Assembly (NCBI GenBank): GCA_025267735.1
Contig: CM046298.1
Location: forward strand, 28,651,866-28,715,865
Direction of reading: 5' to 3'
Length of the DNA: 64,000 nt
DNA from: Mactra quadrangularis
Lineage: Eukaryota > Mollusca > Bivalvia > Venerida > Mactridae
Shown here one piece after another: positions 1,948 to 53,929 of this stretch (position 1 is its first letter; each line of letters starts with the position of its first letter). The translations under genes and the position numbers were made by a program. The notes under the pieces are model-generated. The model saw nothing but the letters and a program-made list of their open reading frames with translations. It had not been told where the DNA came from and ran no database searches.

Positions 1948-1991
1948 CTAAACTGATGATTGTGTTGTTGTTTCCGCAGGTGGTGTTGGAC
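1948..1991 (-). CDS. Exon 19: terminal coding exon
   Basis: The acceptor is CTGTTTTCAG. In phase 1 the exon reads RPTPPAETTTQSSV then TAG at 1950-1948. The Thr/Pro tail matches the composition of the internal linkers. A GTATGT lies just past the stop (1939-1934), so an intron in the 3' UTR cannot be excluded. Confidence 0.7.
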
Positions 1992-4900
1992 CTGAAAACA
2001 ATAGTTTATTTGTAAAGTTAGTTCAATTGCCAGTGGTGCATACACTAACCCCGCTAATTTAAATATCCGACATTTGTTCAATCATTCTCGTTCATAAGTA
2101 CTGATATCTATTTCACTGAAAGTGTATACTGAAGTACAATGAGTATAGACGGAGATTATTAAACAAATATCGATATTTAAATCAGCAGGGTTAATATATG
2201 CACCACTGATATGAACATAATTTACAAATAACATATTTTAGTAAATCTAATAAAAAATTTAACTGATTTTTAAATAAAATTTCTTTTTAAATCAAAAATC
2301 GTTTTGCTTTATAACAAAATCCAATCCCAGTCCACAGTAATTAACATTTAAAGTGAAAAATGTGCTACAATTTAACGTACACAATTCAATAATGCATAAT
2401 ATTGTTTAATTTTGATAAACTGTCAGTGACGCATTCATCAGCCCAAGTGATTTAAATACTCCATATTTGTTCGATCATTCCCGTACATATAAACGGATTT
2501 ATTTTATCGATAGTGAGTACAAAAGTACAGTAGACGTCTTGTGAGTATTTAAATCATCGAGGTTAATGTTCGCGCCACTGACATGGTTTTATGATAGAGG
2601 CCGAGTAATTCATTATGATATAATTAATTGCGGTATAAACCATAGGTGCCAGACACAATTTTCTTTCTTGTTGTATATATGGAAAAAAGGTCTCTAACGC
2701 CTGTTCAGCGGTCGTAATTTTCGAATGGTTACCATTATTACAAAAACGCCCCGATTTTTAAAGTTCCTAATACAATCAAAAGGGAAACTTGTGTCAAGGA
2801 CCTGTGGTAGAAACTAGAAAACCGCACTAATTGAAAATTATTCAAATATTGTTTAGCTAACTTACGGCCACATCTATTACAGAATTTTCTACAATTTTCT
2901 CTACTCCAGCCTTCAAATTCTGGATTTGAACAAACTTCTTGTCCGAAAATTGAACAATCTTGTTTATCTTCACATACAGGTAGATCTATAGAATTAAAAT
3001 GTCATAACGTATTTCTGAACACAATAAGATAATATTTAAGACCGAAATAGAAAAATAGAAATAGAAAAATATTAATGGAACCAATAGTGCAGCAACGATT
3101 CACTGGAAAGCCGATTCGATGCGATTTCTTTCTATCGATTTTATTCCAAATTTCCAGTAAAACATTCATTTGAGCTTTAGACTAACTTAAATTGATAAGA
3201 AATATGTAACCCATATTTTTTACATTTATTTCAGAACAAGATCAATAAAGCAAATGAATTTTCATACTGATTTGTTTATCACTAGATTATGTTGAAAAAA
3301 CAGTAACAAAACTTTTATAAGACTAGTTAAAAGGCCAGTATCGAATTGAATCATTTTGAATTGTCAAAGAGGTCAGACCACAAGTTCGAAATTCCCCTTT
3401 TGACTACATGTATGTACAGTGCTAGATGAAAGTGTATATCTTAGTGGGCAATGTGCTCTAGCCCAGGATTCTACTTACCTCCACAGAAACCACATCTAAG
3501 TGGACAATGTGCTCTAGCCCAGGATTCTACTTACCTCCACAGAAACCACATCTTAGTGGACAATGTGGTCTTGCCCAGGATTCTACTTACCTCCACAGAA
3601 ACCACATCTAAGTGGACAATGTGCTCTAGCCCAGGATTCTACTTACCTCCACAGAAACCACATCTAAGTGGACAATGTGCTCTAGCCCAGGATTCTACTT
3701 ACCTCCACAGAAACCACATCTTAGTGGACAATGTGGTCTAGCCCAGGATTCTACTTACCTCCACAGAAACCACATCTAAGTGGACAATGTGGTCTTGCCC
3801 AGGATTCTACTTACCTCCACAGAAACCACATCTAAGTGGACAATGTGCTCTAGCCCAGGATTCTACTTACCTCCACAGAAACCACATCTAAGTGGACAAT
3901 GTGCTCTAGCCCAGGATTCTACTTACCTCCACAGAAACCACATCTAAGTGGACAATGTGCTCTAGCCCAGGATTCTACTTACCTCCACAGAAACCACATC
4001 TAAGTGGACAATGTGCTCTAGCCCAGGATTCTACTTACCTCCACAGAAACCACATCTAAGTGGACAATGTGCTCTTGCCCAGGATTCTACTTACCTCCAC
4101 AGAAACCACATCTAAGTGGACAATGTGCTCTAGCCCAGGATTCTACTTACCTCCACAGAAACCACATCTAAGTGGACAATGTGCTCTAGCCCAGGATTCT
4201 ACTTACCTCCACAGAAACCACATCTTAGTAGACAATGTGGTCTAGCCCAGGATTCTACTTACCTCCACAGAAACCACATCTAAGTGGACAATGTGGTCTA
4301 GCCCAGGATTCTACTTACCTCCACAGAAACCACATCTTAGTTGACAATGTGGTCTTGCCCAGGATTCTACTTACCTCCACAGAAACCACATCTAAGTGGA
4401 CAATGTGCTCTAGCCCAGGATTCTACTTACCTTCACAGAAACCACATCTTAGTTGACAATGTGGTCTAGCCCAGGATTCTACTTACCTCCACAGAAATCA
4501 CATCTAAGTGGACAATGTGCTCTAGCCCAGGATTCTACTTACCTCCACAGAAACCACATCTAAGTGGACAATGTGCTCTAGCCCAGGATTCTACTTACCT
4601 CCACAGAAACCACATCTAAGTGGACAATGTGCTCTTGCCCAGGATTCTACTTACCTCCACAGAAACCACATCTAAGTGGACAATGTGCTCTAGCCCAGGA
4701 TTCTACTTACCTCCACAGAAACTACATCTAAGTGGACAATGTGCTCTAGCCCAGGATTCTACTTACCTCCACAGAAACTACATGTAAGTGGACAATGTGC
4801 TCTAGCCCAGGATTCTACTTACCTCCACAGAAACCACATCTAAGTGGACAATGTGCTCTAGCCCAGGATTCTACTTACCTCCACAAAAACCACATCTAAG

Positions 4901-7900
4901 TGGACAATGAGCTCTAGCCCAGGATTCTACTTACCTCCACAAAAAACCACATCTAAGTGGACAATGTGCTCTAGCCCAGGATTCTACGTACCTCCACAGA
5001 AACCACATCTAAGTGGACAATGTGCTCTTGCCCAGGATTTTACTTACCTCCACAGAAACCACATCTAAGTGGACAATGTGCTCTTGCCCAGGATTCTACT
5101 TACCTCCACAGAAACCACATCTAAGTGGACAATGTGCTCTTGCCCAGGATTCTACTTACCTCCACAGAAACCACATCTAAGTGGACAATGTGCTCTAGCC
5201 CAGGATTCTACTTACCTCCACAGAAACCACATCTAAGTGGACAATGTGCTCTAGCCCAGGATTCTACTTACCTCCACAGAAACCACATCTAAGTGGACAA
5301 TGTGCTCTAGCCCAGGATTCTACTTACCTCCACAGAAACCACATCTAAGTGGACAATGTGCTCTAGCCCAGGATTCTACTTACCTCCACAGAAACCACAT
5401 CTAAGTGGACAATGTGCTCTAGCCCAGGATTCTACTTACCTCCACAGAAACCACATCTTAGTGGACAATGTGGTCTTGCCCAGGATTCTACTTACCTCCA
5501 CAGAAACAACATCTAAGTGGACAATGTGCTCTAGCCCAGGATTCTACTTACCTCCACAGAAACCACATCTAAGTGGGCAATGTGCTCTAGCCCAGGATTC
5601 TACTTACCTCCACAGAAACCACATCTAAGTGGACAATGTGCTCTAGCCCAGGATTCTACTTACCTCCACAGAAACCACATCTTAGTGGACAATGTGGTCT
5701 TGCCCAGGATTCTACTTACCTCCACAGAAACCACATCTAAGTGGACAATGTGCTCTAGCCCAGGATTCTACTTACCTCCACAGAAACCACATCTTAGTGG
5801 ACAATGTGGTCTTGCCCAGGATTCTACTTACCTCCACAGAAACCACATCTTAGTGGACAATGTGGTCTAGCCCAGGATTCTACTTACCTCCACAGAAACC
5901 ACATCTAAGTGGACAATGTGGTCTTGCCCAGGATTCTACTTACCTCCACAGAAACCACATCTAAGTGGACAATGTGCTCTAGCCCAGGATTCTACTTACC
6001 TCCACAGAAACCACATCTAAGTGGACAATGTGCTCTAGCCCAGGATTCTACTTACCTCCACAGAAACCACATCTAAGTGGACAATGTGCTCTAGCCCAGG
6101 ATTCTACTTACCTCCACAGAAACCACATCTAAGTGGACAATGTGCTCTAGCCCAGGATTCTACTTACCTCCACAGAAACCACATCTAAGTGGACAATGTG
6201 CTCTTGCCCAGGATTCTACTTACCTCCACAGAAACCACATCTAAGTGGACAATGTGCTCTAGCCCAGGATTCTACTTACCTCCACAGAAACCACATCTAA
6301 GTGGACAATGTGCTCTAGCCCAGGATTCTACTTACCTCCACAGAAACCACATCTTAGTAGACAATGTGGTCTAGCCCAGGATTCTACTTACCTCCACAGA
6401 AACCACATCTAAGTGGACAATGTGGTCTAGCCCAGGATTCTACTTACCTCCACAGAAACCACATCTTAGTTGACAATGTGGTCTTGCCCAGGATTCTACT
6501 TACCTCCACAGAAACCACATCTAAGTGGACAATGTGCTCTAGCCCAGGATTCTACTTACCTCCACAGAAACCACATCTTAGTTGACAATGTGGTCTAGCC
6601 CAGGATTCTACTTACCTCCACAGAAATCACATCTAAGTGGACAATGTGCTCTAGCCCAGGATTCTACTTACCTCCACAGAAACCACATCTAAGTGGACAA
6701 TGTGCTCTTGCCCAGAATTCTACTTACCTCCACAGAAACCACATCTAAGTGGACAATGTGCTCTAGCCCAGGATTCTACTTACCTCCACAGAAACCACAT
6801 CTAAGTGGACAATGTGCTCTAGCCCAGGATTCTACTTACCTCCACAGAAACTACATGTAAGTGGACAATGTGCTCTAGCCCAGGATTCTACTTACCTCAA
6901 CATAAACCACATCTAAGTGAACAATGTGCTCTAGCCCAGGATTCTACTTACCTCCACAAAAAACCACATCTAAGTGGACAATGTGCTCTAGCCCAGGATT
7001 CTACGTACCTCCACAGAAACCACATCTAAGTGGACAATGTGCTCTTGCCCAGGATTTTACTTACCTCCACAGAAACCACATCTAAGTGGACAATGTGCTC
7101 TAGCCCAGGATTCTACTTACCTCCACAGAAACCACATCTTAGTGGACAATGTGGTCTTGCCCAGGATTCTACTTACCTCCACAGAAACCACATCTAAGTG
7201 GACAATGTGGTCTTGCCCAGGATTCTACTTACCTCCACAGAAACCACAACTAAGTGGACAATGTGGTCTAGCCCAGGATTCTACTTACCTCCACAGAAAC
7301 CACATCTAAGTGGACAATGTGCTCTTGCCCAGGATTCTACTTACCTCCACAGAAACCACATCTAAGTGGACAATGTGGTCTAGCCCAGGATTCTACTTAC
7401 CTCCACAGAAACCACATCTAAGTGGACAATGTGCTCTTGCCCAGGATTCATATATACCAAAACATTTAGCGTCAGATAAATCAAAACAGCTGTTATTTTG
7501 ATCTTTGCATGCTGCAAAAATTAAATTAGTAAGTGTACATTATTTTTCATCTCCAATTTTAACCATTTTCGTGAAAATCTAATATTAATGATAAGAAATA
7601 CATATAAGTACAATACTATTATAGTCATGATCTAGAAATTTTATCACTGGCACCAACGTTTTTGCAGAACTTTGCTTTAAAAAAGTAAACAAATATACAT
7701 GTACAATTATGCTACATTAACAATTATTGCCTCATGTAATGAATGAAATACGGTTCAGCAATTAATAACTCGTGTATACAATTAATATTATTTGTATTTT
7801 ATTTGTGACAAAACATGTGTATTAAACGTAAACAATTATATACGCATAAAAAGTCACAATTTTAAGCCTTGGTGCCACATCCATGGAAGATCATCAAACG

Positions 7901-10900: not shown

Positions 10901-13900
10901 TTAGATCTGAGAATTTCCAAGCAGATGTGCAGTCGACATGCTAAGTTGTAAAATTTTGAATAAAAGCTTCTGTGTAGTGAGTACAGTAAATTCCATGCCA
11001 TATGATTTATATACTATATTAGAATAAAATAGTGTTACAATTTACAATATCATATAACATTCACGTACGAGTGGGTGGTCCAGCTGAAACAAAAATAGTT
11101 GAACATATTTTGTCAATAGACATTTTTCACTAATTCCAAGTTTATTTAAGTAAAACTCTTTTTTATCATAAAGTTCCGTAAATTAGGAGACTTTTCTGAC
11201 TATTGATAAACAAGTATTATATAATTACAATGGTTTGCTAAGCAGAATTTATAAGTCAAGATCAGAAACCAGAAGCAGTTAAGCATAAAGCAAAATGAAG
11301 CAAAATAAAGCTCTAAGCTTTAAGCTTTATTGACCATATACATCTCAATACATTTTCTAGTGTTATGTTACAGTAACTTTGGCAATTCGATAACTTTTCA
11401 TGTGATGTGCTTTCATATGTCCGTGTAAAAAGCACTTTGAATGAAAGGTTGAAAGTAAAGCACTTTTTGAAAATAGGGGGATAAAAAGTCACAAAATCCT
11501 TAAATGCTACTGAGTACCAAACACTAACTAAGAGATAAACGAATTCTTAAACTTTTGTGATTATTAAAGAAATTACACGCGTATGCATTTATTGCAAAAA
11601 CTACATTTGGCATCAAGGAAGTTAATTAATATGGGAACAGCTAATTTCTACTGAGAGTGTTGGTGTAATGTATGTTTAAATATGTGAAATAGAATTATTT
11701 GTAATAGAAAAACTGGCCACCAATTGAACTAGGGTACAAAATCGACCATTTTCTGAATAATATATCTTACATGTAAATACATTTAAATCTAAATTTTAAA
11801 TCGACAAATCAGTAATTACATACAATATGAAATAAAGTGTTAAATGTTTAATCGCCTTTAATGTCAATAATCAACACATGACACGTAGAGTGTTTTGTCT
11901 CGGATCCGTGCCGGCCGTCTAAGGTCTTTAAAATCTGTTTTGTTTTAGCTGAAACTGTCATACTAGTAATTACTGATTCATTCTTTTAATTCTGAACAAA
12001 TCTAAATAAGTGACTTACTTCCGCAAGGTGGGTATCCGCAGAAAGCAATACAATTCTTGTATGACCATTCGTAATAAGTTGGTGATGTACATAGTTCTGA
12101 TCCATACTCATTACAATTTCCTACCCTATCTACACAAGGAAATGGTGTCGATGTTACTGTAAAAAAGAAAAACATATCATATGCTTTAACTCGCCGTTTA
12201 GCCGTGCATAACATCTTCTCCTTTGAGTAAAAACATTCAAGCAATATGTGTCAGCGTCTTAGACCGACCCATGTCTATTTATAGAATGCTGGAATTAGAA
12301 TTTAGCTGAAATTACCTATTGGCATGCCCTGTTAAGCATATGTAAAGCATTTTAGGCGCGTTTGATTCATTGTGCGGAACCTTCCGGGCAGATATTATAC
12401 ATCGTATAAACAGCCGTCCTGGACATTTTCCAACTGGGAACATAAATTAGCATTATTATGGTAGCATTTAGCTTAGCCGTTTTGTGTCTACTAGTAGTTG
12501 GTCACTTAGAAACCAAAAAACTTTATTAGCACACCGAAGTATTATTCAAGAATATGTTGTGCCCAAATTCCGGACAGGCAACTGAACGCTGTTTACAATG
12601 GCAACCATAATTACAACATAATTACAAATTGTGTAAATTTTCAAGAGAATCTTCACTAGTTTCAAAGATAACAATGTTGGACAAAAACCTTAACCTAGAA
12701 GAGTTACAATGATGCAGACACACAACTGAGTGTGATAGCCTTACTATTCCGAGAATAGGCAAACCAAGAATTAAATACAAAGTAAATACTTACCATGAGT
12801 ATTGAGTGTAAAGATCTAGAGATTTAGGAAATTATCTATACATTCATCGCTTTATACATTATAGAATTACTATAAACTTAAACTTCTTCATTCGATTAAA
12901 CACCTATTGCTGTATTACATATTCAATGGCATTGTACAAAAGGATTAATCAAATCCACATGTGGCCGGCACGGTCCCGAATCAAAAACACAATTTTATAC
13001 TGTTTTTGATTTGGGAACATGCTGACGTTCTGTGATCAAAACCATCATTTTTACAAAGTTTAAACAATATCTGTTAGAATAACTTATGACATTTCTATGT
13101 CTGAGTACAACAAAATGTGTGTTGAAAATTAGGAATGTCAAGAATTAAGGAATACAAATGAACCTATCAACGAGACAGCCAAATTATTATAAAATCAAAA
13201 AAATATAAATCACAAATAATAAATGATTTGAAACTGTATTCCAATATCGCGGACTTTTTATGTATTTCATCCATAAAAGGATGATTCCAAATATAAATAT
13301 ACAAAACATGTCATGTCAAACTACAATGTATAAATGCGTCCATGAGAATGTAACATATGTTTTATACCTGGTGTACAAAATCCACAGAACACCTTACACC
13401 GTTTCTCTGCCCATGGTTTGTATGTTGGATCAACGCATATATTTCTTCCATAGGAAATACAGTTCTCAAGTAAATCAACACATTCACCTGAATTAAAAAG
13501 TCAAAATAAATGCAATCTGATTAAAATCCTATCTAAAATGTTCCGTTTGCCTACTTGCTAATTTAGATCTGGCCGTTTTCTTACGCGGGTCACGTTCAGG
13601 TGACCTTTTCTCATTATAATATTTTTGACGAAATCGTTGTTTAGTAACTTGTTTACATCGTCTACGTCACGCAATTTGAAATGAGCCGTCCAATCGCAGA
13701 CTGTGAATGATACCGCTGTCAAATTAGCTCACAAACCTCGGTCTAAAAATAGAAATTAGGAAATTAAATTGCTGTTAACTGTGTGTTGTCTAGATAAAAG
13801 ATACGCATTGATTCGTTGATGCAAAGGTCTTCTCGACGAGACCCTCCATCAAATCTTAGAGATCCTCCACGACAACGCCCTACAAGATATCTGCTTACGG

Positions 13901-16900
13901 AGATTGAAATAAATGGACCTTGTTTTTTAATGTAGATCCCCTCTAATGATAAAACCCAATAAACCATTTTTTTTAGAAAAACGTGAATATAGTCTACTAA
14001 ACATGACATCTTTATAACACCATCAGACAAGTGCCCATTGTTGTTCCCATGGGTTATCAAGATTTTCAGTCTAGCTAATATCAAGAATTCTGATAGCCTC
14101 TGGGTTTGAGAATGACAAGTTCCCCACCCTGACCCAGTTTTTCATTGACGTGTTATAGCTTGAATAAAAGACATGGGGCTCTTAATTTGTTAATTATTTA
14201 ACAAACTGTGCGGGCTTTCGAGTATAGTCGTTTGCATTCTGTTGGAATAATGTTTACATATCATCTATAGAGAACAAAGACTACAATCGTATAACTCGGG
14301 CCAAAACTTCAATTAATTAAACTTGTTAAAAACGATGCAAGTAATTCAGGCTATATTTTGAACGTTGAGAACAACTGATGTGTTACCGCTTTCCTGCGCT
14401 ACTCGATCATAGGCATTAATATTTTGCTTATACTCACCTTGTGCCACAGTCGAAAGCGGCTCTGTAGCGTTTGTTGGCGCTTGTGTCGTAGGGAGCGCTG
14501 TGACGGTTGTTGGTGCTTGTGTCGTAGGTGGCACTGTGACGGTTGTTGGCGTTTGATTCGTAGGGGGCGCTGCGTCGGTTGTTGGAGCTTTAGTAAAAAG
14601 AGGAACTGTGGCGGCTGTTGGTGCTGCAGTCGAAGGGGTCGCTGCTTCGGTTGTTGGAACTTGTGTCGTAGGGGTCGCTGCGTCGGTTGTTGGAGCTCCA
14701 GTCACAAGAGGAACTGTGGCGGTTGTTGGAGCTCCAGTATTAGGTGGCACTGGGATGGTTGTTGTTTCAGGTTGAGCAATGTCAGATGTTGGTGGTGGAT
14801 CTGTTGTTGTCGTCAATGGTTGATCGGTATCAGTGACTATAAACACAGTGGTTGTAGTTACAGGATCAGTTACAATGACTGGTGAGTCTGTGGTTGTCGT
14901 TATCAGAGGTATATCAGTGGGGGCGGAGGTTGTTGGCATTGGGGTAGTTGATGGTGTAGCAGCTGGAGTTTCTGTTGATGGTGTTTGGGAGGATAAAGGT
15001 AATGCTGTTGAGGAACTTTCTGTTATAACTGTTGGTTTTGCTTTCTCTGAAAGAAGAAATCAATTTGTAATAATCTTTATGGATTGATTTTGTTTATGTT
15101 TTTGATATTATGATCATGATTTATGTTTTACATTGAATAATATTTTTATACGCACGCCTTCACTGGAAATGTAAATGTTATAATAAGTGTATTGTAATGT
15201 ATATTAAAAATGTAAAATTATGGACATATTGTCTAAATTTTGAAATAAACATGTATCTATTTACCTATCTATCATACAATCTTAAGTTTTAAGAACAAAA
15301 TTCATGAATCTAAGGTCAATTTATATTTAAAAAGAGGTCTCCATGTACCGTGTCACTTTCTTTTAGGTTCGTTAATTGTACATAAAACATATAGATAATG
15401 ATGAACAGTCTACAAAATGAGTGAGTGGGTGTCCAGTTGCCCGGGACAATCGCTTCTTAGTTTGGGTAACCAACAATTTCTTTTAGGCAACCGAAATTCC
15501 GCAAATGAGATATAGTGCTTGCTCTTAACATGATCTGTTCGAACAACCACTTTCATATCCTAATTTCGTAGACTGGATAAATGTTTAATATTCAACTTTC
15601 AGTGAGATGAATGTGTTCTTTCTCTGGAAAACCAAAAATAAATAAAAGGTATTTGTTTATTTCGGTGTAAGGTCGATTTTTATTTCACCGATAAATCCCG
15701 GTATTCGACAGGGAAGCATATAATAAATAGCTTTAAGTTATGGAAATACAAAATGCTATAGTACAAACTTATGGATACGTGCCTGTAGTTGGTTTCTTGT
15801 CCCAGTCTGGAGCTGATGTAGGATTTGGCTGGAACTCACTTCCAGGGAAACCTGTGTTATATAAAATGTATTGTCAAAAACATATGTATAGGAATTGCCA
15901 TTCTAGTAATGTTGCAGTTTGTTGAATTATTTTAATTGTCAGGTTTGCACATGCGCAATGTAAGGTCACTATGATCCAATGACTACTTGCACTAATATTT
16001 GTGTAAGGCTTTTTTTCTGTCATAAACAGAAACTAAAATTCAAATAAAGAAAACCTTTTAGTACAAAGTTATTAACTTGGTGTGATTTAACCAAGATTAT
16101 AAATATATCGGCGTTAGATATAATGTCATTTGAAAACAACAGTGTAGAATTTTGGATTCGCCACACTAGTTAGTTTACGGCAAACTTGGCAAGAAGCTAT
16201 ATATGTTCGGAGCCAAAATTACTTCCTCTAAAACAAAGACATTACAAAAATGTATATCAAGTTGGAGCCTTTATTCAACATATGTTTAACTGTACATATA
16301 AATCTTGCATTGATGTTTTTACTATGTCTACGATATGAGTTGGGCTAAAAAGTATCAGAAATCATTCTGCTATAAGATAATAAACTATTTATGGCATTAC
16401 ACATTACCTTTCCCTGCTATCCATAACAAATAAAAATATGTCCTAGCACAATGAATGTATTATACTTACAGTATTTTGTTTTTGTTTTTACTGTATTTTA
16501 ATCATACGTGTGCAATGTATATATTATTTTAATTTAGTCATTAGGTAATATATTTTCATATTCAAAGTCATTACTACTTGTACGACTGAAGACGATATTC
16601 TTATACAGTGTACATGTAATTATTACAATCGTGCTTAGTTGTGAACCACGGTCGTCCAGGCGGAGTTTAGGGGTAAATTAAATAGAACACATATATATGA
16701 TATAGTTATAAAGAAGTACTCACTGCTACCACTTAAGTCATTGGTACCATCAGTACTGTCAACTAAAATAAAACATGAAGTAAAGTTCATTAATCAAGAC
16801 CATCTTGGTTATTGTAAAGTCATTGTTCATTTTTATACAGTTAAAATGTCTACTTTTTAAAGAAAATGCTCTTACATTAAGATCATTCTGGTATAAGAAC

Positions 16901-22900: not shown

Positions 22901-25900
22901 TGTCAAGCAATCCCCCAAACAAAAATAAACATATTTCAGGGTTTTTGTTTTCTTTTTAAAAGTGTACAAAAACTTAAGTCTGGCAAAATAACAAATAAAA
23001 CATAGAGTTTAACATAGAAAACAAATAAATACGTTGTATTTGAGATGAGAATACTATATTAACCCCTTAACAGGAAACATTGCTTTCAGTCTTTTGACAT
23101 ATTTTTTACATATAAAAATGTGCAGCACTATTATCAATTTGTGCAATATACTGCATGTGTCAAAATTTGAGACAATTTTTAACTTTTGTATGTTTGGAAA
23201 TGACATATTACACAGAAAAAAGTAAATTTAACCCCAAAAAGTTACATTTTCAAAATCTATTTCCACCTGCTTTAAGACAACTTAAGTTGGGTCCTGTTTA
23301 AAAGCAGTATGTTTGTTGAATATATGAAATAGTCACATGTCACTCGACTCTCAATCTTTCATGGGAACACAATGCATTATTGGTATTATATATATGAAAT
23401 AGTCACATGTCACTCGACTCTCAATCTTTCATGGGAACACAATGCATTATTGGTATTATATATATGAAATAGTCACATGTCATTCGACTCTCAATCTTTC
23501 ATGGGAACACAATGCATTATTGGTATAATATATATGAAATAGTCACATGTCACTCTACTCTCAATCTTTCATAGGAACACAATGCATTATTGGTATTATA
23601 TATATGAAATAGTCACATGTCACTCGACTCTCAATCTTTCATGGGAACACAATGCATTATTGGTATTATATATATGAAATAGTCACATGTCACTCGACTC
23701 TCAATCTTTCATGGGAACACAATGCATTATTGGTATAATATATATGAAATAGTCACATGTCACTCGACTCTCAATCTTTCATAGGAACACAATGCATTAT
23801 TGGTATTATATATATGAAATAGTCACATGTCACTCGACTCTCAATCTTTCATGGGAACACAATGCATTATTGGTATTATATATATGAAATAGTCACATGT
23901 CACACTACTCGCAATCATTCAAGGCAGCACAATGCATTATTGGTATTATATATATGGAATAGTCACATGTCACACTACTCGCAATCTTTCATGACAGCAC
24001 AATGCATTATTGGTATTATAGACGCCTTTAGTATTGTTGATTGCAATGGTTTTCGTTTTTATGTCGGGAGCATGTTTAGATACATCTCCTTTTTTAGGTT
24101 TAATGCTGTGTCAACACAAGTTATGGTAGACCTTTGTCTATAACCAGTACTCACATTCCCTTTCACAAGGCCGACAACTTCTCCATGTATACTGACACGC
24201 AAAAAACTATACACTCAGTAAACGACAAATTTCACATACAAAGATAAATTCAATGTAGGTATGTTTAGTATCATTCTTTAGCAAAATATATTTGCCACAT
24301 ATCTATGTAAATTTCATTAAACTGTAGTTAATATCTTAAGCATAATCAATGTTTAAAGAGAGAAGGACGAAAAGTAAAAGTTTCAGACGTTCTTTGTATG
24401 AACTTTGGAAAAGAGTTTAATAATGTTATTATACATCAATATCTGTTATGTCCACCACGTGTTCCGATAACGGCAAGCAATCGTAAACGCATAGACTGCC
24501 GTAACGTCTAATGACGTCGGTGGGATTATTAACTAGGTTTATATAAACAAAGAAAAACAAACACACGCAATGGGGTCCCAAAATAAGTACGATCTAGGCT
24601 GTCGTTGTTGAATACAGTTGATCTTGACTTGTTTTGTTAGACGAACACAAACACTATATAGAATTCATGAACATCCCAAATGGTTTTAAAAAGACAAAGG
24701 CATCATGCCACTTGCTTTATAAAAGTAGCACAGACTTGATTGAAAATAAAACTACTGAACTATTCTTCACGTATAATATACATGCATCATACAAGCATAA
24801 CTTAAACGTGTCACCTATAACAAATACATTATATCTGTGCATTTATGCTTCCGATTTTAAGAACGACAGGGGAGGTGTTAGACTAGTGCATTAACAGGCA
24901 TCTAGAGCCATTATATAACAATTAACAAATGAGAAAAAAAAAACTCTATAGAGTCTAAGAGACTATATATATATATATATATATTAACTTTTTCATAACA
25001 AATAACACTCAGTCTACGAAATATGTATACGAAAGTGGTTGCCCGAACATATCATTTTAGCAGTTAGCTCTTGTTTACAGAAATTTGGTTGCCCAGAAGA
25101 AATGTTTGGTTGCCCGAACTAGAAATTGGTTGTCTCGGGCAACCGGACACCCACTAATTTCTTGTGATTACTAATATTAAAATGCTTAACCATTAGTTCA
25201 ACTAATGGTAAAGCATTTTAGTTTTAGTAAATTACAAATGCTATTTGAATTGTTAAAAAGTACCCAATTTCAAATTAACATGAGCTTACTTTTGTAAAAA
25301 TGCCACATGATTTCATAAATCGCCAAGACAAACAAAACAAAATTTACTAAAGGCCACGGCGAACAAACTGTTGTAATAAAGTCATATTTGAGACTCCTTT
25401 GCGACACTGCTATCACAATAAGTCTAGTTTGGCCATTATTGTAGCATGTAAACCAACACCAGCGATTCGAGGGTTGCCCGCAAGACTGTACATGTAGTAA
25501 CTCGCTCTTTAACAAAAAGCACTTGCTACAGTCTTGCAATCCTTGAATTATAAATGTCTCTTATCATCCATACTTCAAAACAACTTTGAAATCCAATAAC
25601 AATACCCCGAAACCATTTAAGCTAAGCCATGCACACAGAAATACAAATGTACAAAAGAAATTTAAAAAAAAGTTCACTTATTATTCGACTGGTTTGTCAA
25701 TTTAATTATGATCTTAATAAATATGTAACATTAATTCAATTATAGATATATCTTTTTCATTGAATGAAATGAAAATAATGCATTGCACAATAATGTTTAA
25801 AACCATATAAGCATGAGTAAAAATACTGTACAAATTTTAAGATGGGACACGATTTCATCTAATATTAATAGCTACATTCTTTATTCACTTATACAATTTT

Positions 25901-31900: not shown

Positions 31901-34900
31901 AAGAAAGCTTGGGGAGAGCGGACCACATTAAAACGCGGGGTAAAGCGGGACAAGGGAGATAATAATATTGTCTCGTTGATTAGCAGATCTCTCGACGGTG
32001 TAAAAGCTTACGTCATCAATACCGACTATCATTCAAAGTTTCCATGGCGGGATATTTTGAATGTATTTAAATCGACTTTTCTCATAGGTTATCATCTGTC
32101 CGTTGTTTAAGCTTAATAGAATAAGCGACTTTAGTTAGTTATTTCTCCTTGTATACTCTTCAAGTAGGTAGGTCCTATTAGTTGGATTACTCGGATTTTA
32201 CCCTTACTTTTCAATGTCAATTTGCGATAATTAATCTTAAATAACTTTGTTGTAAATCATTTAATTTGTTTAAAATTCAAGCTAAGTTTTTTAGGATAAA
32301 GAACTATTTAGATTTCATTACTTCTATTAATATATTCATTTAAAGGAAGATATTAATGAAATATTTTGTTATCCTTACATAGGAATTCAATGATCAAATC
32401 CGAGGGTTCCAACTGTTAGGACCTACTTACCAATTGGATTGCTTTAGATTTTTTTAGGGAAAGATAACTGACTAAAGTCCCTTATTCTCCTTGAATGCAG
32501 AGGATCACTTTCCGAAAGAGTCAAGGCCGAGCAGCTTAAACGTGTGAATGGATCAACGCCAATGATGGTATGAAAAATAAATTGAATTCGTTGATGATTT
32601 CTTTGAGCAATGATTTTTCTCCTGATTGACAGTGACTTGGTAGCAGACTTTACAGATTTTATTTCGTAACCAAGCTAAACATGACCTTTAAACATCGGCA
32701 AAGCAACATGTAAAAAATATAATATCAAAAGATGGATTTTATTTCTATCATATTATTTATTTATATTATTTAATATCTGTATAAAAACTGTTAATTGTAA
32801 GTGTAATTTTTTATAGTGCGATAATATTAACCCTGAGCTTGAACTACCTAATTATAATAATTACACACTTCACTTACATTGAATCGTAAGTTTCCGTATG
32901 CGTGTATACGGTTATATACGTGCTTATAACAACATATTTGACTATAAATCAATTTCATAAGCATGGTATGTTTCATGTACTGTACTTTTAATTTTGGACA
33001 CATAAGTTTTTGGAGGAACACGTAAGTCCGCAATATTGTGGTACAGTTTTAAAGTTTTGATTCTAATGGAAACAAAATTAAATGTTCAGTGCGTTTATTT
33101 TGCCGAAAGTTTCCGATAAAGCGCGATTTACAAACGAAGACAAAAATAGACTGTAAATACTGAGTTTAATATATTATTGTATAAAGGTCAAGCTCGGGTT
33201 AATATTATCGGACAATATAAAACAATAATATCTTCACCTACCTGTACAAAATCCGCAATAATTAGGACAGTTATCTTGAGACCATGCTTTAAATTGACCA
33301 GAGCAAGCATTAGCTCCATATTGTCTACAATCAACTTTATCAACACAATCTGTAAAATAAACATAACACTTGTATATTTCCAGGGGTAGAGATTCCTACT
33401 TGCCCAATCTCTGTATACGAAAGGATTTCTTCTTGGACGAGTGCTTCCAGCATAGTTGAATGTACTAAAACTATGATGCTGCACCTGCAGGTGGTTATTG
33501 TGATTTGACCAACTTCTTTATGAATTTCGTATGAGGGTTATGATGTAATTTTGAGTTAAAGCTCAAATAGGGCTCCAAACGTCAAATTATGAGCCTTAAA
33601 TTCACCAGTCATAAGCCCAAATGGCTATACAAGATAATGGCGAATCTGCATGACTGAATTGAATTGTGCTGGTTTTTCGTTTTTCTTTTTTTAACTTATG
33701 CGGTGAGGGTTTCATTTAGATCTATCGTTATTTCCCGATATTTATCAGAACTTTACTTAGATCCCTCGCGTTAAACTGTCTACGTTTACGCCTGACACAA
33801 GGTTTGAAACTACGAATCTTTAACTACGGGATGTCACAGTGTTTTGATATCAGCTTCCAAAACCCAAAGCAGCTTACGGTTATTGGGGATCTTTTCATGT
33901 TCCGTATGAGCTGAGAAAATGACTGGAGTTCCGAGTGAGCTGAGGAAATGACTTGAGTTCCATATGAGCTTAGAACATGTTTTGACTTCTAAATGAGCTG
34001 AAGAAGTGACTGGAGTTCCGAATGAGCTGAGGAAATGACTTGAGTTCCGTATGAGCTTAGAAAATGACTGGAGTTCCAAATGAGCTGAAGAAGTGACTGG
34101 AGTTTCAAATGAGCTGAGGAAGTGACTGTTGTTCCGAGTGAGCCGATGAAGTGACTGGAATTCCGAATGAGCTGAGGAAATGACTGGAGTTCCGAATGAG
34201 CTGAGGAAATGACTGGAATTCCGAATGAGCTGAGGAAATGACTGGAATTCCGAATGAGCTGAGGAAATGACTGGAGTTCCGAATGAGCTGAGGAAATGAC
34301 TGGAATTCCGAATGAGCTGAGGAAGTGACTGTAATTCCGAATGAGCTGAGGAAGTGACTGGAGTTCCGAATGAGCTGAGGAAATGGAGTTATTGCCTATA
34401 TATGTCAACTGATGGTGAAAAATCCGAATTAAGTAATGAGATAAGTGAATGAGACTGAAAATGTACCTTCAGGTTTTATTGTTGTAGTTATAGCATCTAA
34501 TCTATTTAACTCACTCTCTGGAATAAAGTACAATAGTATTAATACATGTAGTTCGTACAAAAACAAAGCATTGTTTATATGAACAATACAATGAACTATT
34601 CGACGACAGGGGATGATCAGGTTAACAAAATAGGTAATTTTAATATGTTTTTGTTCAAGAGTATCTTGTTGGTGTAATGGTAAAGTGTTTTAACATTACA
34701 TACATGATTGACCAATGGGTAGTGATTCATCTGCTGCACTAATTTTGTTAAAATGAAGTAAACAACTTTTATTTTCAATACTGCCACCTCTAAAAAGGAA
34801 TGGTTCATTTTTAATGTTAACCCAAACACGATTTTTTTGTAGTAAGTATATAAATTAAATTATATTATATATAATAAAAAAGTCAAATTCAAAGATTTCT

Positions 34901-49291: not shown

Positions 49292-52200
49292 CTAGGTATG
49301 TGAAGTTAGCTATCTATTGTCTATTCTCTATTCAAAAGTTTATTCGCACTATTGACAGCTATGTATTGAGAAATCTATTCATTTAGAAGTCTATTCGGAT
49401 TTACTGTATACATAGATATAGGTAAGTTCAAATATCTGTACCAAAATCTATTCACAAAATGCCGAAAAGACAGCTGTCTATTCAAAAGGCTATTCAGAAG
49501 TCTATTCGATAAACGTCAGTAATGCAATCAAACAGATTTAAAAGTCTTTTCGTGGAATACGTAAAGAGACAAATGTCCATTCATAAGTCTATTTCGAAGT
49601 CTATTCGCTAGGGGTGTAACAATATGAAAAAACCCGTATTGCAATATATTGCAATATGCAAAACCTGTATTGCAATATATTGCAACACGTACCGGTTTTT
49701 GCGTAGACGTGCGAAGCATGAATTATTATGCATGTTCATCTTCCTAATTGGATCAGCACAACACGTATACATACATACATATGTGTATATTCAAACGATC
49801 TCTTGTGTAAAATGATCTATAATTTTGGAAAATGCGTGTTTTGAAACAGACTTCTAAAGATATTTTTTTCTCTCAATTGACTAAAAGTTTAACCTTTTTA
49901 CAAATGTCTTTTCAGAAGTCTATTCGCCAAATCATGTTAATGTATTCATAATGTGTCAGAAGTTTGTTATAGAGTTTCGAATACACAGCTGTCCTTACAA
50001 ATGCCTATTCAGAAGTCTATACGCAAAATCATATATTTATATGCATTAAGAATGTGTCTGAAGTCTATTATAAAGTTGCGAATAGACAGATGTCCATTCA
50101 AATGTCTATTCAAAAGTCTATTCGCAAAATCCTGTATATGCATTCAGAATGAGTCAGAAGTCTTTTATAGAGTTTCAAATAGACAGCGGTCTATTCAAAA
50201 GTCTATTCAGAAGTCTATTCGCAAAATCATATATATGCATTTTGAATGTGTCTAAAGTCTATTATAAAGTTGCGAATAGACAGCTGTCCATTCAAATGTC
50301 TATTCAGAAGTCTATTGACAAAATCGAATTGAATATGCATGTACAATGTGTCAGAAGTCTATTATAGAGTAGGTTTGTGAAGTTAACCATCTATTGTCTA
50401 TTCACTATTCAGACGTTTAATCACACGATAAACAGCTATGTATTAAGAATTCTATTCATTCAGAAGTCTATTCGCATTTACTGTATTTATAGATATAGGT
50501 AAGTTAAAAAATCTGAACGAAATTCTATTTACAAAATGCCGAAAAAACAGCTGTCTTTTCGTATCTCTATTCAAAAGTCTATTCGCAAAAACTCAGTAAA
50601 ATCCGAAAGAGTCAAAAGTCTTTTCGTGGAATACGTAAAGAAACAAACATCCATTCAAATGTCTATTCAGAAGTTTATTTGCGAACGCATAGCTATACAT
50701 TCAGAATATTCTAGAAGTCTTTCCATAAAGTGACGAAAATACACATGTCTACTAAAAGTTCTATTCAGAAGTTTATTCGCAAAAACATAGTTATGCAATC
50801 TGAATGTGCAATACATCTATTCCCGGAATGCGAAGCGACAGATGTCCATTCAAAAGTCTATTCAGAAGTTTATTCGTAAACGCTTAGCTTGACATTTAGA
50901 ATGTTCCAAAAGTTTATATTGTAGTGACAAAAAGACAAATGTCTTTTCAGATGTCTATTCAGGAGTCTTTTCGCAAAAATATAGCTATGCATTCAGATTG
51001 TTTCTAAGGTGTATTCGTGGAGTGCAAAGATATACTTAAATTCAAAACTCTGTACGGAAATCTATTAACAAAATACCGAAAGGACAGCTGTCAATTCAAA
51101 AGTCTATTCAGAAATCTTTTCGCTATGCATTCAGATTGTTCATGAGGTTTATTCGAGGTTTGCGAATAAACAGCTGTCCATTGTCAATTTGGAAGTCTAT
51201 TCAGAAGTCTATTCGCAAAAACTCAGTAATGCGATCAAAAATATTTAAAAGTCTATTCGTGGAATATGTCAAGAGACAAAAGTCCATTCAAAAGTCTTTT
51301 AGAAGTTTATTTGCAAACGCTTAGCCATCCATTCAGAATAATATAAAAAGTCTATTCGTGAAGTGTAGAAAACACACATATCTATTGGAAGGTCGATTCA
51401 GAAGTTATTGACAAAAACATTGGTATGCAATCTAAATGTGCCAGACGTCTATTCGTGGAATCTGAAGTGGCTGATGTCCATTCAAAAGTCTATTCAGAAG
51501 TTTATTCGTAAATGCATAGCTTGCTATTTTAAATGTTCCAAAAGACTTTATTGAAATGACAAAAAAGTCAAATGTCTTTTCAAAAGTCTATTCAGAAGTC
51601 TATTCGCGAAAATATTGCTATGTATTTGGACACTTTCAGGCGTCTATTCGGGAATGCGAATAGACAGCTGTCCAATCAAAGGTCTATTCGGACATTTATT
51701 CCGAAATTAAGAATGTGTCGGAAATCTATTATAAAGTTGCGAATAGTCAGCTGTCCATTCAAATGTCTATTCAAAAGTCTATTCGCAAAATCAACTTTAT
51801 GCATTTAGAATGTGTCAGAAGTATATTCTAGGATTGCGAATAGATGGCTGTCTTTTCAAATGTCTATTCAGAAGTCTATTCGCAAAAAATCAAGTAAATG
51901 CTTTTAGAATGTGTCAGAAGTATTTTTTTGGATTGCGAATAGACAACTGTCTTTTTAAATGTCTATTCAGAAGTCTATTCGCAAAATCAAGTAAATGCAT
52001 GTAGATTGTGTCAGAAGTATATCCTTGGATTGCGAATAGACAGCTATCCATTCATATGCCAATTCAGAAGTCTATTCGCAAACAGTAGTTTGCATTCGGA
52101 ATGTAGCAGAAGTCTTTATATAAAGTTACGTTTTGTAAAGTGTTAAATAGGCATATTCAAATTATTTATCAGAAGTCTATTTGCAAAATCATTCATATGC

Positions 52201-53929
52201 ATACTTAATGTGTCGGAATTATTTTCTGGGTTTTTGAATAGACATGCTCTTTGAAGCAGGTCTACTTTTTTCTATTGAAAGCAATAATTCTATTTTTCTC
52301 CTGGTAGTAAGTCTTCTCTCGGTAGCTGAATTACTTCTTTCTTTTAAAATCAGGTCTTACGGACTTTTAAAAATAATTACTGGCATGAGATTAATTTTTT
52401 TAATTGATTTTGTCTACCTTTTTCATTTCGGTCACAAGATGAATACATTATATTTACTGCAAGCACGAACCTGTGAGAAAACACCAAGATTGACGTCACG
52501 CTGTAGCACCGTCAAAAGAATTTAACAAAATGGCGTAAAATTGTGTTTCTTATAAAACAAAAATAATCATTTTGAAAGGCTTAATCACTTAAATGTAAAT
52601 TGGTGACAAAGGAGTTTCTTTTGGCACTTATTTTTCTTATTATCTCTGTGGATAATAACAATTTTACGATTTAATATGAAATTCAAAGGTTTCTACCTAC
52701 TAACTTCGAAATATTAGCAAGTCTCAAGCAATGGCGCGTCCTCGAAAATAAAACCAGCACTGGTTACCGAATTTGCATTTGCACTTGTGTAATCTACGGT
52801 ACCATTAATCTTGTTTGAATCAGATTTTACCGGCTCAATTTGGTTTACAGAATCTGCAAAATAACGACGATATGAAAAGGCAAATTCGACCTTCACCTAA
52901 AATTGCGGAAATATTCGGGAGATTCATTTATGTTTACGAGAGTAATAAAACTTTCTTAATTCAGGCAAAACCAAGCAAACTTCAGTAGAGTTGGCTAGTC
53001 TAACACAATTACATCAGACACATTCTGAATGCATAAACATGATTTTGCGAATAGACTTCTGAATAGACATTTGAATGGACAGCTGTCTGTTCGCAACTCT
53101 TTGAATAGACTTTTGACACTTTTAAATGCATATATATGCTTTTTCGAATAGACTTCTGAAAAGACATTTTTAAGAATTGCTGTCTATCCGCTACTCTTTG
53201 AATAGACTTCTGGCACATTCTAAATGCATATGAATGATTTTGCGAATTGACTTCGGAATAGACTTTTGAATTGACATTTGTCTCTTTACGTATTCCACGA
53301 AAAGATTTTCAAATCTGTTTGATTGCATTACTGACTTTGTTTCGAATAGACTTCTGAATAGACTTCCGAATATACAGCTGTCTATTCACGACCCACGAAT
53401 TAACCTCAGGAACAATCTGAATGCATAGCTATTTTTTGCGAAAAGACTATTGAATAGGGATCCGAATAGACTTTTGAATGGACATTTGTGGCTTCGCATT
53501 CCGTGAATAGACATCTCGCACATTCAGATTGCATAACTTTGTTTTTGCGAATAAACTTCTGAATAGACTTTTGAATGGGCATTTGTCTCTTTACGTATTC
53601 CACGAAAAGACTTTTAAATTTGTTTGATTGCATTACCGACCTTTTTTTCGAATAGACTTTTGAATAGACCTCCGAATATACAGCTGTCTATTCACACCCC
53701 ACGAATGAACCTCAGGAACAATCTGAATGCATTGCTATATATTCGCGAAAAGACTTTTGAATAGAGATCCGAACTTTTGGTACAGATATTTGAACTTACC
53801 TATATCTATGTATACAGTAAATGCGCAAAGACTTCTGAATGAATAGATTTCTCAATACATAGCTGTCTATAGTGCGAACAAACTTTTGAATAGAGAATAG
53901 ACAATAGATAGCTAACTTCAGAGACCTAG
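49292..53929. mobile_element. 4.6-kb fold-back element with degenerate GAATAGACTT repeats
   Basis: The ends CTAGGTATGTGAAGTTAGCT and AGCTAACTTCAGAGACCTAG are inverted, and similarity continues about 155 bp inward. The left arm (about 3 kb) repeats AGTCTATTCAGAAGTCTATTCG in units of about 100 bp; the right arm (about 0.93 kb) carries the complement. A second copy of the end motif is at 50371-50520. Short frames are repeat by-products; no transposase found. Confidence 0.9.
52262..52980. other. Spacer between the fold-back arms
   Basis: About 720 bp without the arm repeat. Two short open frames (52244-52525 plus, 52714-52896 minus) show no domain I recognise. It could be captured host DNA or a relic of the autonomous element. 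Confidence 0.5.

Follow-up and report, generated by a model that had tools for sequence, protein, structure and literature searches.

The window, by which is meant the whole stretch of 64,000 nucleotides that was analysed, is located at 28.65 Mb on a 47.3-Mb contig of a 979-Mb genome. On its minus strand, a gene model covering the last nine exons, all of them predicted, extends from 15851 to 1948; each exon is entered in phase 1, and together they give a single open frame ending in a stop. The model includes one Thr/Pro-rich exon and four ShK motifs. Four further ShK motifs have been identified upstream on the same strand, eight being seen in the window overall. Seven of them were scanned with Pfam and six reached the PF01549 cut-off of 20.9 bits, including both exons that flank the array described below; the motif at 44840-44971 stayed under it with 19.1 bits. 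The eighth motif, at 12019-12156 within the model, was read by eye, outside the Pfam scan. The least certain choices in the gene model are a possible GC donor at 15783 and a 15-nt exon at 11083-11069. A 36-bp in-frame repeat at 14471-14764 (minus strand), within the Thr/Pro-rich predicted exon 14438-15046, is a second tandem repeat in the gene model and lengthens the protein.

The array-bearing exon (7401..7511, minus strand) is 111 nt long and encodes the seventh of the eight ShK motifs in the window (SCKDQNNSC...CPLRCGFCG; PF01549, 21.8 bits). It runs from phase 1 to phase 1, is bounded by the acceptor TTTTTGCAG and the donor GAG|GTAAGTAG, and keeps the frame open with its neighbours. Directly behind it is a predicted intron of 4415 nt (2986..7400, minus strand) containing 69 GTAAGT, followed by the next predicted exon (2866..2985, minus strand), which carries the acceptor TTCTATAG and the eighth ShK motif (PF01549, 23.6 bits). 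This exon matches in phase and would be the splice partner across the array intron; in the predicted model, exon 7401-7511 joins 2985 in frame. The last predicted coding exon (1948..1991, minus strand) supplies PTPPAETTTQSSV and the stop.

The 56-bp minisatellite, an array of GAGGTAAGT, occupies 3438..7449 on the minus strand. Its units follow each other head to tail from 7449 down to 3438 and carry the exon end with its splice donor into the following intron, positions 7401-7449 being exonic and the remainder intronic. For 3438-7449, TRF gave a period of 56, 71.6 copies, 96% matches and a score of 7418. With units delimited at the exon's GAATCC, segmentation of the array revealed 71 full units and one partial unit of 34 nt at 3438-3471; the unit spacing is 56 in 68 cases and 57 in two, with one extra T in each of two units (units 9 and 45). 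A unit is composed of the last 49 nt of the 111-nt ShK exon and 7 nt of intron, and the exonic part of unit 1 is the end of the exon itself (7401-7449). An earlier, sequence-only reading had described an exon-intron border, 49 exonic nt and the intron start, amplified as a 56-bp minisatellite, and the segmentation confirms this. The same holds for the roughly 70 near-equivalent consensus donors that it placed in one intron: the donor is GTAAGT in 69 of the 71 full units and GTACGT in two (units 8 and 44, both inside duplicated blocks). Its statement that nearly every unit keeps both the coding motif and the donor is accurate for the donor and too strong for the peptide, CPLRCGFCG being exact in 57 of 71 units. 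The array contains 21 distinct unit sequences, 30 of the 71 units are identical to the consensus, and the mean pairwise identity is 96.6%.

Units 15-33 (5601..6664, minus strand) and units 53-71 (3472..4535, minus strand) are the first and second copies of a 19-unit block, identified from the unit table and block comparison. The two copies show four differences over 1064 nt, a similarity that 10000 shuffles of the unit order did not once reach. Units 8-10 match at a shift of 36 units with four differences, and units 11-14 at a shift of 37 with two, the three matching stretches having been chosen by eye from the unit table. The matches at shifts of 36 and 37 indicate that the duplicated block was longer, and that the unit number of one copy changed later by gain or loss. 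Minisatellites ordinarily turn over in this way. Over its 56 nt, the coding copy (unit 1) has the same sequence as six other units, and the exon end itself therefore shares the recent homogeneity; the founding duplication is not reconstructable, since the array ends in mid-unit at 3438. A block present twice at 99.6% identity could also arise in the assembly, from merged alleles or repeat errors, in which case the border repeat would be real but shorter, and the number of copies or the 19-unit duplication an artefact. This explanation is rather doubtful, as the alignment of 26 unit pairs shows ten differing positions and two changes of register (shifts of 36, 37 and 38 units), and the length of the contig suggests long reads.

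Elsewhere in the window, no match to the unit beyond 10 bp has been identified. In the genome search, which scores the best candidates so that match counts are lower bounds, a 556-bp array query gave at least 12 listed matches, all within this array. Ten of the many paralogous ShK loci among the matches listed (L035-L044, about 3.1 kb each) were analysed; 20 regex matches to the ShK motif, one exon being matched twice, correspond to 19 distinct motifs. TRF revealed no array adjoining any of these 19 motifs in the ten loci; what it did find with a period of at least 10 was five short tandem repeats, each of about two copies and none closer than 184 nt to a motif. The best match listed to the array exon outside the locus, L041 (49% identity, query 119-157), has no array in its 3.1 kb, and its motif ends CGYC and continues G|GTATGT. 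A dispersed element and a trait of the ShK gene family have both been rejected on these grounds: the unit has no match longer than 10 bp in the rest of the window, the listed genome matches lie in the array, and the 19 paralogous motifs have no array. At gathering scores, Rfam gave 0 matches over the window. The 11 candidates from the general protein database all fell short of E 0.001, and no orthologue from other species was found among them.

The repeat content of the surroundings was estimated from a 200-kb sample, consisting of 20 stretches of 10 kb along contig C6 only, the same contig as the window (G+C about 33%, 100 N, overlapping arrays collapsed). It contains 55 arrays with a period of at least 10, and four of these reach 1 kb or more. 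With minisatellites so common, a few would be expected to have been founded over splice borders. None of the 55 arrays of this sample has a consensus unit with GGTRAGT (GGTAAGT or GGTGAGT), which gives no ground for calling border repeats as such frequent in the genome. The window itself contains other tandem repeats: a 70-bp repeat at 23320-24020 (10 copies, 96% matches); a 97-bp repeat family forming several arrays at 49901-53773, apparently in both orientations by consensus; and, near ShK exons, a 29-bp repeat of 16.8 copies at 33899-34385 (minus strand), where three minus frames run from stop to stop over 184, 159 and 96 codons, though a unit of 29 bp does not preserve the reading frame. 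On contig C19 of genome G000 (4976780-4978919 and 4985469-4987113), ShK matches apparently represent whole exons in tandem, with a spacing of 1013 bp occurring twice (three places of equal E-value) and three more at 763 and 768 bp.

Constraint within the array was assessed from substitution types, each position and base being counted once and the single inserted base in each of units 9 and 45 being excluded; 20 types were found over the 71 units. In these tests, whose power is low with 20 types and many non-independent units, the 9-nt donor takes two types where 3.2 are expected (P 0.34), and the 6-nt donor takes one where 2.1 are expected (P 0.33), which is no excess of donor conservation. 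At the same low power, no coding constraint is detected in the first 48 nt, where five types are synonymous against 4.0 expected (P 0.36); the non-synonymous types there are 13 amino-acid changes and one stop, and one type lies in the last 8 nt. The per-site divergence of 0.77%, with three common polymorphic sites left out, predicts 67.8 intact GTAAGT among 71 units, and 69 are observed. Of the 51 hexamer windows in the unit, counting that of the donor itself, 18 are as intact as the donor or more. In crude neutral turnover simulations, 180 runs in all, 53 ended at a comparable divergence, and the figure of 69/71 was attained in 34% of these 53. The young age of the array thus accounts for its intact donors. 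Neither for the donors nor for the coding positions does selection find support, as substitution counts, hexamer windows and simulations are all without signal; weak selection would be compatible with the low power.

The sequence-only reading stated that it knew of no such array having been described. The implied novelty does not stand, since the lancelet "mirage" minisatellites and the human CBS VNTR, going by the excerpts of their reports, share the architecture. The mirages comprise those of Adh3 and of the globins BflGb6 and BflGb9 (PMC3087553), to which PGBD5 and troponin C were added (PMC3902484). Like the present array, they are described in these excerpts as tandem repeats over an exon-intron border that carry splice signals into the intron (PMC3087553, PMC3902484). 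In the excerpted text of the first report, RT-PCR suggests that regular splicing continues, and the repeats are proposed as a source of new introns (PMC3087553). BflGb6 is reported there to show concerted evolution, with unit numbers that differ between two haplotypes; its 6 and 3 units of 150-160 bp repeat the 3' border of the intron, whereas the 71 units of 56 bp described here all repeat the 5' border. BflGb9 differs in having a single duplicate of 157 bp, and the Adh3 units measure 10-72 bp against 56 bp here, as given in the same excerpts. In humans, the 31-bp VNTR of CBS, c.1444_1467+7(16_21), contains 24 exonic and 7 intronic bases by its coordinates (PMC2630376) and is listed also in PMC5188458. 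The quoted part of the former describes an invariant unit length with single substitutions, and each copy likewise repeats an exon end and an intron start (PMC2630376). Minisatellite expansion at exon-intron borders has further been proposed as a way in which novel introns may form, with human segmental duplications as the material (PMC2812944). Those repeats, as characterized there, differ in being 30-bp units with four copies on average in recent human paralogues, and not one long intronic array. The CBS VNTR also differs by its quoted dimensions: its 16-21 copies of a 31-bp unit compare with 71 copies of a 56-bp unit here. Lievers is said to have found in 2001 that the extra donors of the CBS VNTR are used in vivo. 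The array therefore shares the anatomy of described border repeats and differs from them in scale and probably in host. The kind is already known in lancelets and humans; what stands out is the scale, with about 71 near-identical strong donors.

We consider it probable that the array is a mirage-type minisatellite across the 5' splice site of the ShK exon, which expanded neutrally and in which the donors are passengers and not a device. It has the following characteristic features: (i) the unit straddles the splice site, taking in part of a predicted exon and the start of the next intron, with 49 + 7 nt around GAG|GTAAGT; (ii) the head-to-tail copies, 71 units in all, run into the intron past the authentic border; (iii) the units are homogeneous in mean identity, in the share equal to the consensus and in the duplicated 19-unit block, although youth alone would look alike. 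A neutral by-product was one of three readings offered from the sequence, and it is the best supported, the donors being conserved no more than the unit and the block duplication being present.

The message would be altered if donors beyond the first were used. The frame past the first donor reads G, K and stop, in agreement with the TAG noticed earlier just past this donor, and for this reason every later donor yields an identical truncated protein end. With donor 2 the stop would precede the junction by 48 nt, with donor 3 by 104 nt; under the 50-55-nt rule for NMD, donor 3 and later donors alone would be exposed, if the rule holds in this animal. The predicted pairing of the donor GAG|GTAAGTAG with the U1 5' end is -12.3 kcal/mol, the second strongest among the model's eight donors, and only 2 of 3432 minus-strand GT sites outside the array equal or beat it. 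These properties would suit a tuner of splicing, in which competing donors divert some pre-mRNA to GK-stop transcripts and the copy number serves as a dial; the outcome, a form lacking the last ShK motif or removal of the message by NMD, would be independent of donor choice. Such a tuner is nevertheless improbable, as the donors show no excess conservation and the lancelet mirages are reported, in the excerpts cited, not to disturb splicing (PMC3087553, PMC3902484). A narrower form of the proposal, in which about 70 equal donors share U1, the fraction spliced at internal donors gives one uniform truncated protein, and array length sets the ratio of C-terminal forms, appears quite improbable.

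That some 70 intronic sites act as a U1-binding platform, recruiting U1 snRNP against premature polyadenylation, pausing the polymerase or retaining the RNA, is scarcely credible: the pairing of -12.3 kcal/mol is indeed predicted for 68 of the 71 units (-12.2 in one, -8.1 in two), and ten exact array donors have unpaired probabilities of 0.41-0.68 in a predicted fold of the first 700 nt, versus 0.06-0.44 for the model's seven other donors in 600-nt folds, but the donors are without excess conservation and the array holds no polyadenylation hexamers needing protection. The array part (3438-7400) has 0 AATAAA/ATTAAA in 3963 nt, compared with 2.76 per kb elsewhere on the strand, a trivial consequence of the repeat; two AATAAA follow the array within the intron 2986..7400. 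Both tuning of splicing and a U1 platform had been suggested by the earlier reading, and neither finds support where donor conservation, at low power, is no higher than that of the whole unit.

It was also considered whether the units might serve as small exons or as recursive splice points. A PWM was built on nine acceptors, the true ones being scored leaving one out. The AGs of the consensus unit score from -10.1 to -2.4, the nine true acceptors from -1.9 to 10.8, and the median of all AG on the strand is -4.2. The best AG of the unit is AG|GTAAGT (-2.4), and exon 2985 has the weakest of the true acceptors (-1.9). As no unit AG reaches any of the nine true acceptors, this candidate was disfavoured, and acceptor use inside the array is, by these scores, unlikely; the margin is small at exon 2985, where the best unit AG comes within 0.5.

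For the neutrally expanded mirage-type minisatellite, the following course may be proposed. A 56-bp stretch over the 5' splice site of the ShK exon would first have been duplicated in tandem; expansion would then have proceeded by unequal exchange or replication slippage, and in the course of this growth a block of 26 units or more would have been duplicated, with 19 units sharing one register. The splicing machinery would mostly use the first donor, as exon definition keeps the 111-nt exon. Use of a later donor may be tolerated now and then, since the protein would in every case be cut short in the same way (CGFCG-GK-stop), with loss of the last ShK motif and the tail. First-donor use and the exon model are both predictions.

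The approximately 71 near-identical strong donors offer a natural test of 5' splice site choice among equals, in which the sequence is constant and the donors of the array differ in where they lie, in distance and in exon definition. Should the host belong neither to the lancelets nor to the vertebrates, as a G+C of about 33% and a genome of 979 Mb suggest by comparison with those groups, the array would also widen the known range of border repeats.
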